Source: Galbibacter kalidii
GTDB lineage: Bacteria; Bacteroidota; Bacteroidia; Flavobacteriales; Flavobacteriaceae
DNA length: 64,000 nucleotides
Assembly (NCBI RefSeq): GCF_026241135.1
Contig: NZ_JAPFGA010000001.1
Coordinates: forward strand, 248,001-312,000
Direction of reading: 5' to 3'
Shown here one piece after another: positions 2,067 through 39,306 of this stretch. The notes below the pieces were generated by a model, which was not told the origin of the DNA, did not search any database, and saw only the letters and a program-made list of their open reading frames with translations. Both the position numbers and the translations under genes were made by a program. Position 1 is the first letter of the stretch; each line of letters opens with the position of its first letter.

Positions 2067-3020
2067 ATGAGGGATATTAAAAATATACTAGTAGTAGTTG
2101 GAGTTGCAATTGTTTCTGCTGTATTTATAAATGCGGTACAGACAACACCATCACTTGATAACGAGACATATAAATCCAAAGACAAGGATAGCCTTAGCTT
2201 GGTGAACGATTATAATGTCTACGCGATAAAAACCCCTAAAAACATAGATTTTGCAGGTGAACGGGTACCTGTTGAAGATCCGGATGTAAAAGAGAGGCTC
2301 GATAGAGAACTCTTGGTAAATACCTATTGGCAGTCTAACGGGTTATTACTCATAAAAAGGGCTAATAAATATTTCCCGATAATCGAGCCTATTTTGAGAT
2401 ATCAAGGAGTGCCGGAAGACTTTAAATACCTGGCTGTGATAGAAAGTGGGTTGACACAGGCAGTTTCTCCGGCCGGAGCAACGGGTTTTTGGCAGTTAAT
2501 GAAAGGGACAGCTCGTGAATATGGATTGGAAGTGAACGACAATGTAGACGAGCGCTACCACATTCAAAAATCTACGGAAGTAGCTTGTGCCTATTTAAAG
2601 AAAGCAAAAGAACGCTTTGGTTCGTGGACTATGGCAGCAGCGGCATACAATGCAGGTCAATACGGAATGGCAAAACAATTGGATCGCCAGGAGGTGGATG
2701 ATTATTATGATGTTTTATTAGGGGAAGAAACCGGACGTTATGTGTTTAGGATTTTGGCACTAAAGGAAATCCTTTCTCATCCTAAAGATTACGGTTTTAA
2801 TTTTGATCAGGAAGATTTATATAAACATATTCCTGTCAACGAAGTTGAGGTAGATACTGCTGTGAGTAATTTTCCTAAGTTTGCAAAGCAATTTGGTGTC
2901 AACTATAAAATATTGAAAATCCACAATCCTTGGCTTAGGGATGCCCACCTAAACAATAGTTCCCGAAAGAAATATTATATAGAAATTCCAAAAGAAGGAT
3001 ATTATCCTCTTGTGAAATAA
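2067..3020 (+). CDS. Membrane-anchored lytic murein transglycosylase (SLT/MltD-like)
   Basis: 317 residues. An N-terminal signal anchor (about residues 7-24) precedes an SLT-type lysozyme-like domain. The catalytic Glu126 is in AVIESGLTQAVSPAGATGFW, and AAAAYNAGQYG and ETGRYVFRILALKEI follow as in the MltD/Slt group. It cleaves the MurNAc-GlcNAc bond of peptidoglycan with 1,6-anhydro ring formation, in the periplasm. The last 70 residues are a short tail without a clear LysM repeat, so it is shorter than E. coli MltD. An intrinsic terminator follows. Confidence 0.88.
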   Translation: MRDIKNILVVVGVAIVSAVFINAVQTTPSLDNETYKSKDKDSLSLVNDYNVYAIKTPKNIDFAGERVPVEDPDVKERLDRELLVNTYWQSNGLLLIKRANKYFPIIEPILRYQGVPEDFKYLAVIESGLTQAVSPAGATGFWQLMKGTAREYGLEVNDNVDERYHIQKSTEVACAYLKKAKERFGSWTMAAAAYNAGQYGMAKQLDRQEVDDYYDVLLGEETGRYVFRILALKEILSHPKDYGFNFDQEDLYKHIPVNEVEVDTAVSNFPKFAKQFGVNYKILKIHNPWLRDAHLNNSSRKKYYIEIPKEGYYPLVK

Positions 3021-3050
3021 TATAGAATTGAAAGAAAAAAAGGAAAAGCA

Positions 3051-3088
3051 AAGGCCGAGGGAGAAATTCTTCGGCCTTATATTTTTTT
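3051..3088 (+). terminator. Intrinsic terminator of the transglycosylase gene
   Basis: AAGGCCGA pairs with TCGGCCTT around an internal loop (3051-3079), followed by ATATTTTTTT. Its tail overlaps the stop codon of the convergent gene. Confidence 0.75.
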
Positions 3089-3592
3089 CATCTGTTGTTG
3101 CATCATTTTGATCTGATCTTTCAACATCTTTTGTTTATCCAGTTTTTTGGCCTCATTCAGCAACATGGTCGCTTCTCTTTTTCGGCGTTTTTGCATAGCG
3201 ATACCGGCAAGGCTCAATTTAGCCATGGCAAGGTCATAGTCCATAGAAAGTCCAAGCTTGATAGCCTTTTTGAAATATTTTTCAGCTTCGGTCAGGTTGG
3301 TTTGAGAAGACATAATGCCTTTCAGGTAGTTGTAATATCCTTGCTGTTTAACGGTCAATGCGCTCTGCGGATTTTTGATCTTGCTCAACCATTTCCCTGT
3401 TCCTTCAAAATCTTGTTTTCGCATTCTTAAAAATGCCAGCAAAATCATTTCATTCCTAAAATACAGGAAAATGAAAATAAGCGACAGCAGTACAAGGGAA
3501 ATCCCATTTCCTATGTTACCTTCAATAAATTGATAAACGGCATAGGCAATGATTAAACCGGCAATGACTAATTTTATATTTTTGTTGAACAT
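3077..3592 (-). CDS. Small membrane protein with TPR-like helices
   Basis: 171 residues from the ATG at 3592. A longer frame begins at 3661, but the extra 23 residues are not protein-like. Residues 6-45 form two closely spaced transmembrane helices (LVIAGLIIAYAVYQF, GISLVLLSLIFIFLYF). The rest is a cytosolic alpha-helical part with TPR-like pattern (NYLKGIM, AEKYFKKAIKLGL, AKLSLAGIAMQKRRKREA, LLNEAKKL) ending in a Met/Gln-rich tail. It resembles small DUF2892/TPR proteins of Flavobacteriia. The function is unknown. Confidence 0.7.
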   Translation of the reverse strand: MFNKNIKLVIAGLIIAYAVYQFIEGNIGNGISLVLLSLIFIFLYFRNEMILLAFLRMRKQDFEGTGKWLSKIKNPQSALTVKQQGYYNYLKGIMSSQTNLTEAEKYFKKAIKLGLSMDYDLAMAKLSLAGIAMQKRRKREATMLLNEAKKLDKQKMLKDQIKMMQQQMKKI

Positions 3593-36345: not shown

Positions 36346-37179
36346 ATGAGCGAAATAAAGATTTCAGTCATAATAAGTACGTATAATTCTGAAGTTTGGT
36401 TGCAGAAGGTATTATGGGGGTATCAAAATCAGCAATTTAAGGATTTTGAGATGGTCATTGCAGACGATGGGTCCGGCCCGGCAACCAAAGAACTTCTGGA
36501 GCAGATGAAGACTGAGGTTTTTTATCCCATAAAACACGTTTGGCAGGAAGACGATGGCTTTCAAAAATCAAAAATTCTCAACAAGGCGATTCTGGTTTGC
36601 GATGCACTATATATCGTGATGAGTGATGGCGATTGCATCCCGAGACCTGATTTTTTAGAAATTCACTATACGACTAAAAGAGAAGGACATTTTTTATCCG
36701 GAGGATATTTTAAGCTTCCTATGGAAACTTCGAAAAAGATTAACAAGGAAGATATTTTTGCCGGACGGTGTTTTGATCCTGAATGGTTGAAGGAAAATGG
36801 AGTGCCATCTACTTTTAAATTGAATAAACTTACGAAGAGCAAGAGAAAAGCCAGTATGCTGAATTTTATCACCCCCACAAAAACTACATGGAACGGCAAT
36901 AATTCCTCAGGATGGAAAAAAGATATTGTGGCGGTAAACGGATTTGACGAGCGAATGCAATATGGAGGTCAAGATCGTGAAATGGGAGCTCGGATGGTGA
37001 ACAATGGGGTCAAACCGATACAAATACGTTATAGTTCTACTTGTGTGCATTTAGACCATGCAAGGGGATATAAAAATAAAGAGACACTGGCCAGGAACAA
37101 GGCGATAAGAAAAGCAACTAAAGAAAAAAGGGCTGTTTGGACACCTTATGGGATTGTAAAAAAAAAGCTAATTAGATGA
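36346..37179 (+). CDS. GT2 glycosyltransferase with galactosyltransferase-like C-terminus
   Basis: 277 residues. The GT-A core is KISVIISTYNSEVWLQKVLW, FEMVIADDGSGPATKELL and YIVMSDGDCIPRPDFL (DxD variant DGD). The C-terminal NGNNSSGWKKDIVAVNGFDE and YGGQDREMGARMVNNG match the Glyco_transf_7C region, as in chondroitin- and capsule-type enzymes. Its TGA overlaps an ATG (ATGA at 37176-37179) that is the start of a truncated epimerase remnant, so it was once directly coupled to the epimerase. Confidence 0.88.
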   Translation: MSEIKISVIISTYNSEVWLQKVLWGYQNQQFKDFEMVIADDGSGPATKELLEQMKTEVFYPIKHVWQEDDGFQKSKILNKAILVCDALYIVMSDGDCIPRPDFLEIHYTTKREGHFLSGGYFKLPMETSKKINKEDIFAGRCFDPEWLKENGVPSTFKLNKLTKSKRKASMLNFITPTKTTWNGNNSSGWKKDIVAVNGFDERMQYGGQDREMGARMVNNGVKPIQIRYSSTCVHLDHARGYKNKETLARNKAIRKATKEKRAVWTPYGIVKKKLIR

Positions 37180-37211
37180 AGATATTAATAACAGGAGTAG
37201 CAGGGTTTTAA
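37176..37211 (+). pseudogene. 11-codon remnant of the epimerase start
   Basis: The ATG at 37176 overlaps the glycosyltransferase stop. It encodes MKILITGVAGF and then TAA. This is the Rossmann start of the sugar epimerase, which is repeated in diverged form within 37544-37575 (RILITGCAGFIGSH). The open frame is cut by the sequence that carries the GIY-YIG gene. Confidence 0.75.
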
Positions 37212-37219
37212 CCCATGAA

Positions 37220-37513
37220 ATGATGACAAATAATTTTGCGGAATATTATTATGTATATGTTTTGTTGTCGTTAAAAGATGGTAAGAAATATACTGGTTAT
37301 ACCAAAGATTTGTCATCACGATTTGAGGAACATCAAAAAGGGAAGGTGACATCAACGAAAAATCGACGCCCGTTTAAATTGATTTATTTTGAAGGTTGTT
37401 TGAATCAAAAGGATGCATTAAAACGGGAAAAATATTTAAAAACCCACTATGGTAAAATGTATTTGGGCAATCGCCTCAAATCGTATTTCATAGGTCGGGA
37501 ACAGGATAGTTAG
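37220..37513 (+). CDS. Free-standing GIY-YIG nuclease-domain protein
   Basis: 97 residues, a single GIY-YIG domain of the UvrC-N/YhbQ-like type. YYVYVLLSLKDGKKYTGYT holds the YVY...YTG pair, then KDLSSRFEEHQKGKVTSTKN, RRPFKLIYFEGC and ALKREKYLKTHYG (with the family Arg and Glu residues). Stand-alone proteins of this group are frequent in Flavobacteriia and seem to move between loci; whether they cut DNA in vivo is not settled. Here the gene sits exactly in the start region of an epimerase gene. ATG 37220 or 37223 could be the start. Confidence 0.87.
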   Translation: MMTNNFAEYYYVYVLLSLKDGKKYTGYTKDLSSRFEEHQKGKVTSTKNRRPFKLIYFEGCLNQKDALKREKYLKTHYGKMYLGNRLKSYFIGREQDS

Positions 37514-37515
37514 AA

Positions 37516-38484
37516 ATGAAAAATAAAGATTCTAAGAAAAATAAAAGAATATTAATAACGGGATGTGCTGGGTTTATTGGCTCTCATACCGCTGAATATT
37601 TTGCTGCACAAGGGCATGAAGTGTATGGAATAGATAATTTTTCTACCTATTACGATCCGCAGTTGAAGAAAATGAATGTTGAAGATGTGGTTGCGGCAGG
37701 TGTCACTTTTGTGGAGTGTGACCTTATGGATGATTTGAGCAAAAAGCTTCCGGCAGATTTCGATTATGTTTTTCACTTTGCGGCACAACCGGGTATTTCG
37801 GCTACGGTTATGCTGGATGAATATGTTCAAAACAATATTTTTGCCACGCAAAACCTGTTGGATTGGGTAAGAGTTTATAGTCCGAAGCTCAGCATGTTTG
37901 TCAATATCGCCACTTCTTCCATCTACGGAAAGGAGGCCACCCTGCCCGAAACCGCTGAACCCAAACCGGTTTCTTTCTACGGAACGACCAAATTGGCAGC
38001 AGAGCAATTGGTCCTGGGGGAGCAGCGCACCGGAAAACTGAATGCCTGTTCGTTACGTTTGTATTCGGTTTATGGTCCTAGGGAACGTCCGGAAAAATTA
38101 TACACAAAACTGATCAAATCCATTTACGAGCAAACCGAATTCCCGTTGTTTGAGGGTAGTGAAAAACACTCCAGAAGCTTTACATATGTAGGTGATATTG
38201 TAAGTGGAATGGCCGCTGTAATCGGAAAGGAAGACAAAATAAACGGAGAGATCATCAACATTGGTTCTAATCATGAATACACCACACAACAAGGAATAGA
38301 ACTGATAGAGATGATCATCGGACTTAAAGCAAAACTGAAGATCACACCGCCACGTCCCGGCGATCAACTTCGCACATCAGCACTGATAAGCAAAGCCGAA
38401 AAGTTATTGGGATACAAACTCGAAACCACCTTTGAAGAAGGCCTAAAAAAACAAGTGGAGTGGTATAGGGAGAAGTTTTTGTAG
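37516..38484 (+). CDS. NAD-dependent sugar epimerase/dehydratase (SDR, UDP-glucuronate epimerase-like)
   Basis: 322 residues. Extended SDR: GCAGFIGSHTAEYFAAQGHE (NAD-binding GxxGxxG), HFAAQPGIS, the catalytic triad Ser in TSSIYG and YxxxK in YGTTKLAAEQ, and RLYSVYGPRERPEK. The sequence is closest to UDP-glucuronate 4-epimerase/WbpP-type enzymes of surface-sugar synthesis. The first ten residues (MKNKDSKKNK) form an unusual Lys-rich leader and look like a replacement start acquired when the GIY-YIG gene inserted. Confidence 0.9.
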   Translation: MKNKDSKKNKRILITGCAGFIGSHTAEYFAAQGHEVYGIDNFSTYYDPQLKKMNVEDVVAAGVTFVECDLMDDLSKKLPADFDYVFHFAAQPGISATVMLDEYVQNNIFATQNLLDWVRVYSPKLSMFVNIATSSIYGKEATLPETAEPKPVSFYGTTKLAAEQLVLGEQRTGKLNACSLRLYSVYGPRERPEKLYTKLIKSIYEQTEFPLFEGSEKHSRSFTYVGDIVSGMAAVIGKEDKINGEIINIGSNHEYTTQQGIELIEMIIGLKAKLKITPPRPGDQLRTSALISKAEKLLGYKLETTFEEGLKKQVEWYREKFL

Positions 38485-38675: not shown

Positions 38676-38978
38676 ATGCAAATAAATGAGGAAAATATCA
38701 ATCGTATCAAAAAGCTTTGTAAGCAATACAAAGTTCGAACATTTTCTGCTTTTGGTTCAGTGACACGCGATGACTTTAACGATGATTCCGATATTGACTT
38801 TGTTGTTGATTTTGAAGAAAACGATCCGTTTAAATACACCGATTTATACTTTCAGCTTAAAGAAAAGCTGGAAAAATTGCTGAAACGCCAAATAGACCTT
38901 ATTGAAGTGAGAGGGATTAAAAACCAGTTTTTTAAAAAAGAACTTGATGCTACAAAAATCCTGATCTATGGACAATAG
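38676..38978 (+). CDS. mntA: MntA-like nucleotidyltransferase antitoxin (second copy)
   Basis: 100 residues with the intact GSx10DxD motif (GSVTRDDFNDDSDID, about residues 27-41) and RQIDLIEVRG supplying the third acidic residue. The stop overlaps the start of the following hepT by 11 bp. It is only distantly similar to the copy at 15680, so this is a separate module and not a recent duplication. It lies downstream of the epimerase after a 190-bp spacer. Confidence 0.88.
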   Translation: MQINEENINRIKKLCKQYKVRTFSAFGSVTRDDFNDDSDIDFVVDFEENDPFKYTDLYFQLKEKLEKLLKRQIDLIEVRGIKNQFFKKELDATKILIYGQ

Positions 38979-39306
38979 AATTAATGCTTGGCTTGAAGAT
39001 ATTATTAGGTCTATTGATGAAATAGATGATTTCCTTCCAGAAAAAAGAAACTTTCTTGAATACCAAAAAGATTTAAAAACAAAAAAAGCAGTTGAAAGAA
39101 ATATTGAGATTATCGGTGAGGCTGTTAGCCGAATTTCAAAACACAAAGATTGTGATATTGAAATAAAAAACGCTCAAAAGATAATCGGAACACGGAATAG
39201 GATAGCTCACGAATATGATAGTATTTCTGACGAAGTTATATGGACTATTATAGTAAAAGAACTTCCGGGACTTAAAAAGGAAATAAAGAATTTAAAAGAG
39301 GAATAA
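38968..39306 (+). CDS. hepT: HepT-like RNase toxin (second copy)
   Basis: 112 residues, HEPN/DUF86 domain. The active site RNRIAHEYDS fits Rx4-6HxY and the upstream IEIIGEAVSRIS is conserved. Order and overlap with mntA are as expected for this toxin-antitoxin family. It lies between polysaccharide genes, convergent with a glycosyltransferase 68 bp away. Confidence 0.9.
   Translation: MDNRINAWLEDIIRSIDEIDDFLPEKRNFLEYQKDLKTKKAVERNIEIIGEAVSRISKHKDCDIEIKNAQKIIGTRNRIAHEYDSISDEVIWTIIVKELPGLKKEIKNLKEE

Follow-up and report, generated by a model that had tools for sequence, protein, structure and literature searches.

Mobile open reading frames (ORFs) of fungal mitochondria are described as making gene hybrids, in atp6 of Allomyces and in atp6, atp9, cox2 and nad3 of Glomus (passages of PMC3630166). 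These hybrids appear to be the nearest described analogue of the element considered here, a putative mobile cassette of 367 bp which contains a stand-alone GIY-YIG nuclease gene and lies at the start of a sugar-nucleotide epimerase gene of Galbibacter kalidii (contig NZ_JAPFGA010000001.1, positions 248,001 to 312,000 of the forward strand; this whole 64-kb stretch is called the window below). In both, an endonuclease ORF comes together with foreign sequence that replaces one end of a gene, the native end being left, and the replacement diverges more from close relatives than the native end does, while the fungal ORFs replace the C-terminus and the bacterial cassette replaces the N-terminus (same passages of PMC3630166). 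The fungal ORFs are mitochondrial, whereas the cassette is chromosomal, with covarying inverted repeats, one short GIY-YIG protein and hairpin relatives.

RAYT, which belongs to the tyrosine transposases of the Y1/HUH kind, differs as an enzyme from the GIY-YIG protein of the element described here. The likeness to the REP/RAYT system lies in the partnership of a single gene with many short palindromes, as presented in parts of PMC2817692 and PMC3116915; a term check in PMC12306157, on REP sequences, gave no mention of GIY-YIG in the text covered. The free-standing endonucleases of T4-like phages (GIY-YIG enzymes of the SegA type, and MobE) resemble the cassette in having a stand-alone nuclease gene at a conserved gene, in the co-conversion of flanks and, for mobE, in a start/stop overlap with the neighbouring gene, but their setting is a phage, and the relevant passages of PMC2988022 speak neither of inverted-repeat ends nor of a patch of the target gene that travels along. 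One GIY-YIG protein is mentioned among genes for which a transfer from Patescibacteria to other bacteria has been inferred (part of PMC12455944); such a transfer fits a mobile element, the text concerned being silent on the form of such an element. The UPF0213 GIY-YIG proteins (PDB 1zg2 and 1ywl), deposited as hypothetical proteins, share the fold and the sequence family. Judging by titles and abstract openings, no such bacterial element is described in the open-access literature among the matches listed, and no paper was found there on UPF0213 together with GIY-YIG.

From the make-up of the locus and of its relatives, it is likely that the GIY-YIG gene of the window is part of a small selfish, homing-like cassette which cuts conserved codons and brings a built-in repair of the host gene. 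The features of the locus, in window coordinates, are the following.

36346-37179, plus strand: gene for a family 2 glycosyltransferase, on the upstream side of the insertion (ORF; Pfam PF00535, 63 bits)
37176-37208, plus strand: abandoned native 5' end of the epimerase gene (ATG, MKILITGVAGF, then TAA at 37209-37211)
37209-37575, plus strand: putative mobile cassette, 367 bp, supported by homology to a second copy (L005)
37209-37221, plus strand: left inverted-repeat arm, TAACCCATGAAAT
37220-37513, plus strand: stand-alone GIY-YIG nuclease gene, 97 aa (ORF; Pfam PF01541, 62.3 bits, cut-off 22.6)
37485-37497, plus strand: right inverted-repeat arm, ATTTCATAGGTCG, within SYFIG codons, complementary to the left arm at 10 of 13 positions
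37516-37575, plus strand: replacement N-terminal patch, MKNKDSKKNKRILITGCAGF, ending in GF codons; its nearest relative is the rmlB patch of the same genome
37516-38484, plus strand: complete sugar-nucleotide epimerase/dehydratase, whose ORF now begins in the cassette (Pfam PF01370, 167 bits)

A sequence-only reading of the window had already described this arrangement, and all of it was found again: the ATGA overlap (37176-37179) between the glycosyltransferase stop at 37179 and the ATG at 37176, MKILITGVAGF followed by a stop, the ORF of 97 residues and the complete epimerase. The cassette is made up of an inverted-repeat core with the GIY-YIG gene, a linker, a new ATG and the replacement patch; the core, about 290 bp and bounded by the inverted repeats, is taken up by the nuclease gene. 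The native start stays upstream, closed by its stop codon, and the new start of the epimerase reads MKNKDSKKNKR..., the cassette parting the GF codons of the Rossmann loop from its IG codons exactly at their boundary. Anchored on the GF codons, the left and right ITGxAGF copies are identical at 23 of 30 bases and at 21 of the last 26, in line with the five differences over 26 bp reported earlier, and position 37575, the end given by that reading, falls exactly on the final base of the repeat. Elsewhere in the window, neither strand holds a 30-base stretch that matches the right copy as well as the left copy does. The window protein has GIY-YIG as its sole domain and belongs to no known transposase type, including the Y1 HUH transposases. 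Three other identities were rejected: a group I intron or intein, since the ORF fills the core with stop codons on both sides; an RNA element, since Rfam gave only a sub-threshold 5.8S match; and a phage origin, since a scan of viral_contigs returned no relative of the window protein.

Comparison of the junction with related genomes lacking the GIY-YIG gene also agreed with the earlier reading. Indeed, the epimerase is uninterrupted in all six congeners (G001-G006; different species, not strains), where its start, MKIL[VI]TGAxGFIGSH in 6/6, resembles the abandoned start at 37176-37208; the window holds the occupied allele of this gene, as opposed to the empty allele of the congeners. The claim of a translationally coupled glycosyltransferase-epimerase ancestor stood only in part: a glycosyltransferase gene lies directly upstream of the epimerase in three congeners (G001, with a 48-bp gap, and G003 and G005, both overlapping), whereas another gene takes this place in G002, G004 and G006.

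A PF01541 search of the same genome gave 11 matches. One of these, L005, is the second copy of the element; it is identical to the window element at 374 of 408 bases (92%), yet it adjoins a different gene, rmlB, coding for a dTDP-glucose 4,6-dehydratase (TIGR01181, 471 bits) that is 35% identical to the window epimerase. It is also preceded by an abandoned start (MDRIDSSNNKKILITGGAGF, then NP, then a stop). The close similarity of the two loci runs from the left ITGxAGF codons to the right IGSH codons, and two genes have thus received nearly identical DNA at the same codons. Upstream of the rmlB insertion (L005, about 1378-1410), the stretch KTHYGWM resembles the KTHYGKM of the GIY-YIG protein, with a weak match (tblastn E 0.48), and is perhaps the remnant of an earlier element.

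The window patch is closest to the patch of the genome's own rmlB (41/48 bases), as against 28-36/48 for the six congeneric rmlB starts and 26-29/48 for the six epimerase orthologues, so that the window copy was probably derived from this rmlB gene. Congeneric rmlB is clean in G001, G002 and G003 and carries an element scar in G004, G005 and G006, consisting of the last 15 or so codons of the element with the right arm and being weakest in G005. These patterns suggest that rmlB was probably the older host, with invasion, decay and loss there, before a later jump to the epimerase in this species only.

A scan of 397 genomes of the family returned 13 close relatives in 12 genomes, at 68-100% identity; 11 of them lie directly before epimerase/dehydratase starts (one truncated) and two interrupt a four-helix-bundle gene. 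A wider set of 82 loci was assembled from the two own-genome copies and the best 80 of 196 relatives, retrieved from a species-genome collection with a ten-row alignment and including some loci of the family scan. Target labels (Rossmann, four-helix-bundle, AbrB-like, GIY-YIG, other) were assigned by eye. Twenty-five of the 82 loci lie at the Rossmann GAGF^IG codons of sugar epimerases/dehydratases, a class defined with the abandoned-start residue in view. Twelve are in four-helix-bundle genes (a family whose Pfam name, PF05635, comes from one intact homologue only), nine at the same N^IAEG-type codons and three (L122, L126, L142) nearby in another subfamily. Six are in genes that we take to be AbrB-like, and two (L088, L127), read by eye, inside GIY-YIG genes of a different subfamily. 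A motif check found an intact Rossmann start downstream in 25/25 Rossmann loci and an abandoned start upstream in 22, that of the other three being altered and recognisable by eye. The best family models of the target enzymes vary (dTDP-glucose dehydratase, TviC-like, GalE-like; nine tested, only L005 and L091 passing a cut-off). The arrangement of the window recurs in these 25 loci; they and the own rmlB copy support the proposal of the sequence-only reading, a homing-like insertion at conserved codons that brought a new initiation region.

The same reading had named, as a competing account of the duplicate, a tandem epimerase deleted in its middle; the GIY-YIG gene would then be there by chance. 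In favour of this, the left fragment is indeed similar to the start of an epimerase. Yet the same breakpoint recurs in 25 loci and in different genes, together with inverted-repeat ends, two copies occur in one genome, and the orthologues are clean in 6/6 congeners; this vertical duplication is hardly credible.

Hosts include Bacteroidota, several Patescibacteria lineages, Thermodesulfobacteriota, Nitrospinota, Elusimicrobiota and others, many of the records being metagenome bins whose labels may be wrong. The flavobacteria, to which the idea had been confined, do carry such elements, but the host range is wider. On the protein tree, which has few columns and many unresolved forks and leaves out L094 and L125, target classes cluster yet switch repeatedly (15 changes versus a shuffled mean of 38.3). 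In L076 (about 2900-3330), the element occupies the 3' end of a gene whose last codons recur downstream in diverged form (IIDYLAQAKIYP / IIEYLAEKKIFP, read by eye), the mirror image of the N-terminal case.

The nuclease itself appears as a maintained protein. Y24, G26, R34 and E70, presumably the catalytic residues, are invariant in the 66 sequences aligned out of the 82 proteins, and dN/dS between copies is 0.02-0.09 in 82-codon comparisons with estimable dS, several dS values being saturated, which indicates strong purifying selection. The AlphaFold2 model has the GIY-YIG fold (pLDDT 88); its nearest solved structures are UPF0213 1zg2 and then Slx1, a branched-DNA nuclease, the match to I-TevI being weak (E 0.8). 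Of the 82 matched stretches, 7 contain a stop, which in four falls within the nuclease, a pattern that suits a degree of decay. The purifying selection, and the host-gene starts that in many loci coincide with the nuclease stop or lie close to it, would also suit a domesticated, non-mobile host nuclease whose position before sugar genes is regulatory, through translational coupling. By contrast, the patchy presence of the gene, its decay to scars, the stops inside the nuclease in 4/82 copies, the varied kinds of target and the tandem arrays are at odds with domestication, which we regard as very improbable.

In the homing-like cassette that we favour, the GIY-YIG protein would cut the conserved codons of an empty gene, and the break would be repaired from a cassette-bearing donor by way of flanking homology, 20-30 bp per side (ITGxAGF and GFIGSx). 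The host gene would gain the cassette and a donor-derived N-terminus, would stay expressed through re-initiation after the nuclease stop, and once patched would keep a site open to renewed invasion. The protein may also recognise the ends of the element, as the inverted repeats and hairpins described below suggest, the process then being homing, transposition or both.

One genome (G392) offers an empty-site pair, an interrupted and an intact four-helix-bundle gene 2 kb apart. The two match up to ...CCCTCAAACA and resume at CAGAAGG, 294 bases replacing 3, with right flanks identical at 232/233 bases and left flanks at 163/178; no target-site duplication was found at this pair, the one clean empty site. 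Serial insertion is apparent elsewhere: in the Lutibacter locus L252 the native start is followed by two tandem cassettes, both of which have a patch of their own, and L253, from a Saprospiraceae genome, has a 5'-truncated cassette with its patch and then a complete cassette. In L083 and L085, a 32-bp hairpin lies right at the GGGTTT junction. The duplications of L098 and L103 were considered as target duplications and rejected, the left copy being the patch of an earlier cassette (as for L119, by analogy). Since cassettes occur in tandem and hairpins at junctions, the restored codons are apparently open to repeat insertion. The sequence-only reading had supposed, on the contrary, that the glycine-rich loop was recoded so as to escape cleavage. 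This part is not supported: the left copy is split in the occupied gene, but the right copies keep the target codons, as the tandem cassettes of L252 also illustrate; the left and right copies of L074 match over about 30 bp; and no consistent recoding change appeared when right copies were compared by eye.

The ends of the element are covarying inverted repeats. The best 14-base inverted repeat reaches at least 13 matches in 39/82 loci, versus 0/82 shuffled versions. Arms were found by pattern in 79 of the 82 loci (76 once duplicates were removed; L081, L085 and L108, with no pattern match to the ends, and three duplicates were set aside from the covariation count). Columns 2, 6 and 8 of the arms covary, column 8 being G-C in 46 elements, T-A in 20, C-G in 9 and G-T in 1. 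Within the 76 elements, 841 of 988 positions pair, versus 747 +/- 9 when right arms are permuted (maximum 779 in 2000), the arms having been picked for best matching among few candidates, with a mild bias to pairing, and related elements being non-independent. The right arm lies within coding sequence, so that the SY[F/L] codons of the protein track it. No comparable ends beyond shuffles were found in 25 loci of other GIY-YIG subfamilies (10-13 versus 10-12 matches; the single 13 is a separate repeat, L067 was too short, and the windows used differ from those of the 82-locus test). Among 30 Patescibacteria relatives, at least 5 lower-scoring ones (L193, L194, L199, L200 and L204) have ends of another self-complementary sequence, CCCGTTAGAG...CTCTAACGGG, and 7 loci gave no motif match.

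Short palindromes with the ends of the element also occur on their own. Near elements, 8 were found in 453 kb of loci versus 0 in shuffles, and 9 of 19 element-bearing genomes hold 32 copies of CCCTGTTAAAT-N(14-44)-ATTTAACAGGG, a reversed-pattern control giving 0. When extended by one base at both ends, three of these hairpin copies fold into complete three-way junctions. In a sample of 239 genomes, hairpins were present in 13, of which 11 have a GIY-YIG relative at E<=1e-15, versus 117/239 overall (Fisher 0.009). Hairpins are also present in each of the four genomes that score highest for GIY-YIG (Fisher 5e-6), and their element ends are of the same type; this cut was set after the scores had been seen, and one of the four (G455) was the sample centre, picked for having both. 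Within the family of the window genome, the association between hairpins and elements is soft. Indeed, among 60 relatives, the pattern occurs in three: G000 (5 copies), which carries elements; G027 (8 copies), which carries a remnant; and G006 (1 copy, inside an ORF and possibly due to chance), which carries a scar. No hairpin of the searched form was found in G030 and G036, which have the element, or in G004 and G005, which have a scar, scars having been sought only in congeners. By eye, several hairpins of G000 and G027 look like cores of longer palindromes. In the own genome, two more GIY-YIG genes (L001 and L004) stand beside palindromes of the TCATGCTGAG...TGTCGAAGC type, in a sulfate-assimilation-like context with neighbours that we take to be cysC/cysD/cysN-like, and are possibly another GIY-YIG/palindrome pair.

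A rival account is a true transposable element, in which the GIY-YIG protein would act as a transposase on the palindromic ends, would insert at preferred sequences and would also move short hairpin derivatives, the N-terminal duplications being a by-product of selection for host-gene function. The covarying ends of the 76 distinct elements, the hairpins sharing them (8 versus 0 near elements; 32 copies in 9/19 genomes), their co-occurrence with GIY-YIG relatives (11/13 versus 117/239), the 37/82 insertions with no nameable target and the missing duplication at the one clean empty site all accord with it. Some known transposon families are likewise without target-site duplication. Unlike most transposons, however, the element chose the same codons repeatedly (25/82 Rossmann loci and nine N^IAEG-type four-helix-bundle loci), and G030 and G036, with the element, and G004 and G005, with a scar, lack hairpins of the searched form. 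We know of no GIY-YIG transposase, and hold this explanation to be on the unlikely side.

Several observations weigh against the homing-like cassette. The conserved target could not be named by eye in the 37 loci labelled other; two of these, L076 and L146, precede an epimerase gene but show no abandoned epimerase start that could be recognised. The restored site seems to be unprotected, unlike a classical homing allele, and the transposon-like ends, with hairpins sharing them, point to a possible recognition of ends beside that of the target. The window arms pair at only 10/13 positions and the minimum-energy fold leaves them unpaired; single-strand pairing of the ends of the window element was rejected on this ground. 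Concerning the origin of the window copy, rmlB is not syntenic between the own genome and the congeners (the upstream gene differs), which lowers our confidence, and another rmlB-like gene, a clean one, is present in G006; rmlB orthology is therefore read from sequence similarity only. The identity of the patch (41/48) is also below that of the nuclease genes, and the direction from rmlB to epimerase is thus a matter of likelihood only.

Other stand-alone GIY-YIG genes lie beside tRNA genes (L054-L066, L068-L071; in the own genome L003, L008 and L009). In a group at 40-52% identity, all 17 loci scanned (L067 being left out) hold a tRNA gene for Arg, Met, Asn or Ala; in 12 of them its distance from the matched stretch is no more than about 20 bp, and in five, all Asn, no more than about 310 bp. 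Three of six other GIY-YIG loci scanned in the own genome have a neighbouring tRNA, and some genomes hold adjacent copies; this looks like tRNA-targeted homing. Downstream in the window (38676-39306, plus strand), adjacent small ORFs presumably resemble a pair of MNT nucleotidyltransferase and HEPN genes.

Stand-alone GIY-YIG genes occur in many bacterial genomes (the own genome alone gives 11 PF01541 matches) and are mostly unexplained. If the cassette is as we propose, one group of them would be gene-drive-like cassettes aimed at near-unchangeable codons, namely those of the glycine-rich NAD-binding loop and, in four-helix-bundle genes, those of the N-IAEG type. This would be a bacterial version of the gene-end replacement of fungal mitochondria, would explain odd N-termini of sugar-nucleotide enzymes, and would offer a testable GIY-YIG counterpart to the REP/RAYT system, with the target site and natural empty alleles known to the base. 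More tentatively, and with more doubt than belief, the element may represent a new class of prokaryotic mobile element, with GIY-YIG as the sole gene of a palindrome-ended unit of about 290 bp that would recognise its own covarying ends as well as conserved target codons, spread across phyla, mobilise hairpins in trans and, in protein genes, carry a swappable start-of-gene patch which leaves the host gene functional and makes the site available again for serial insertion.

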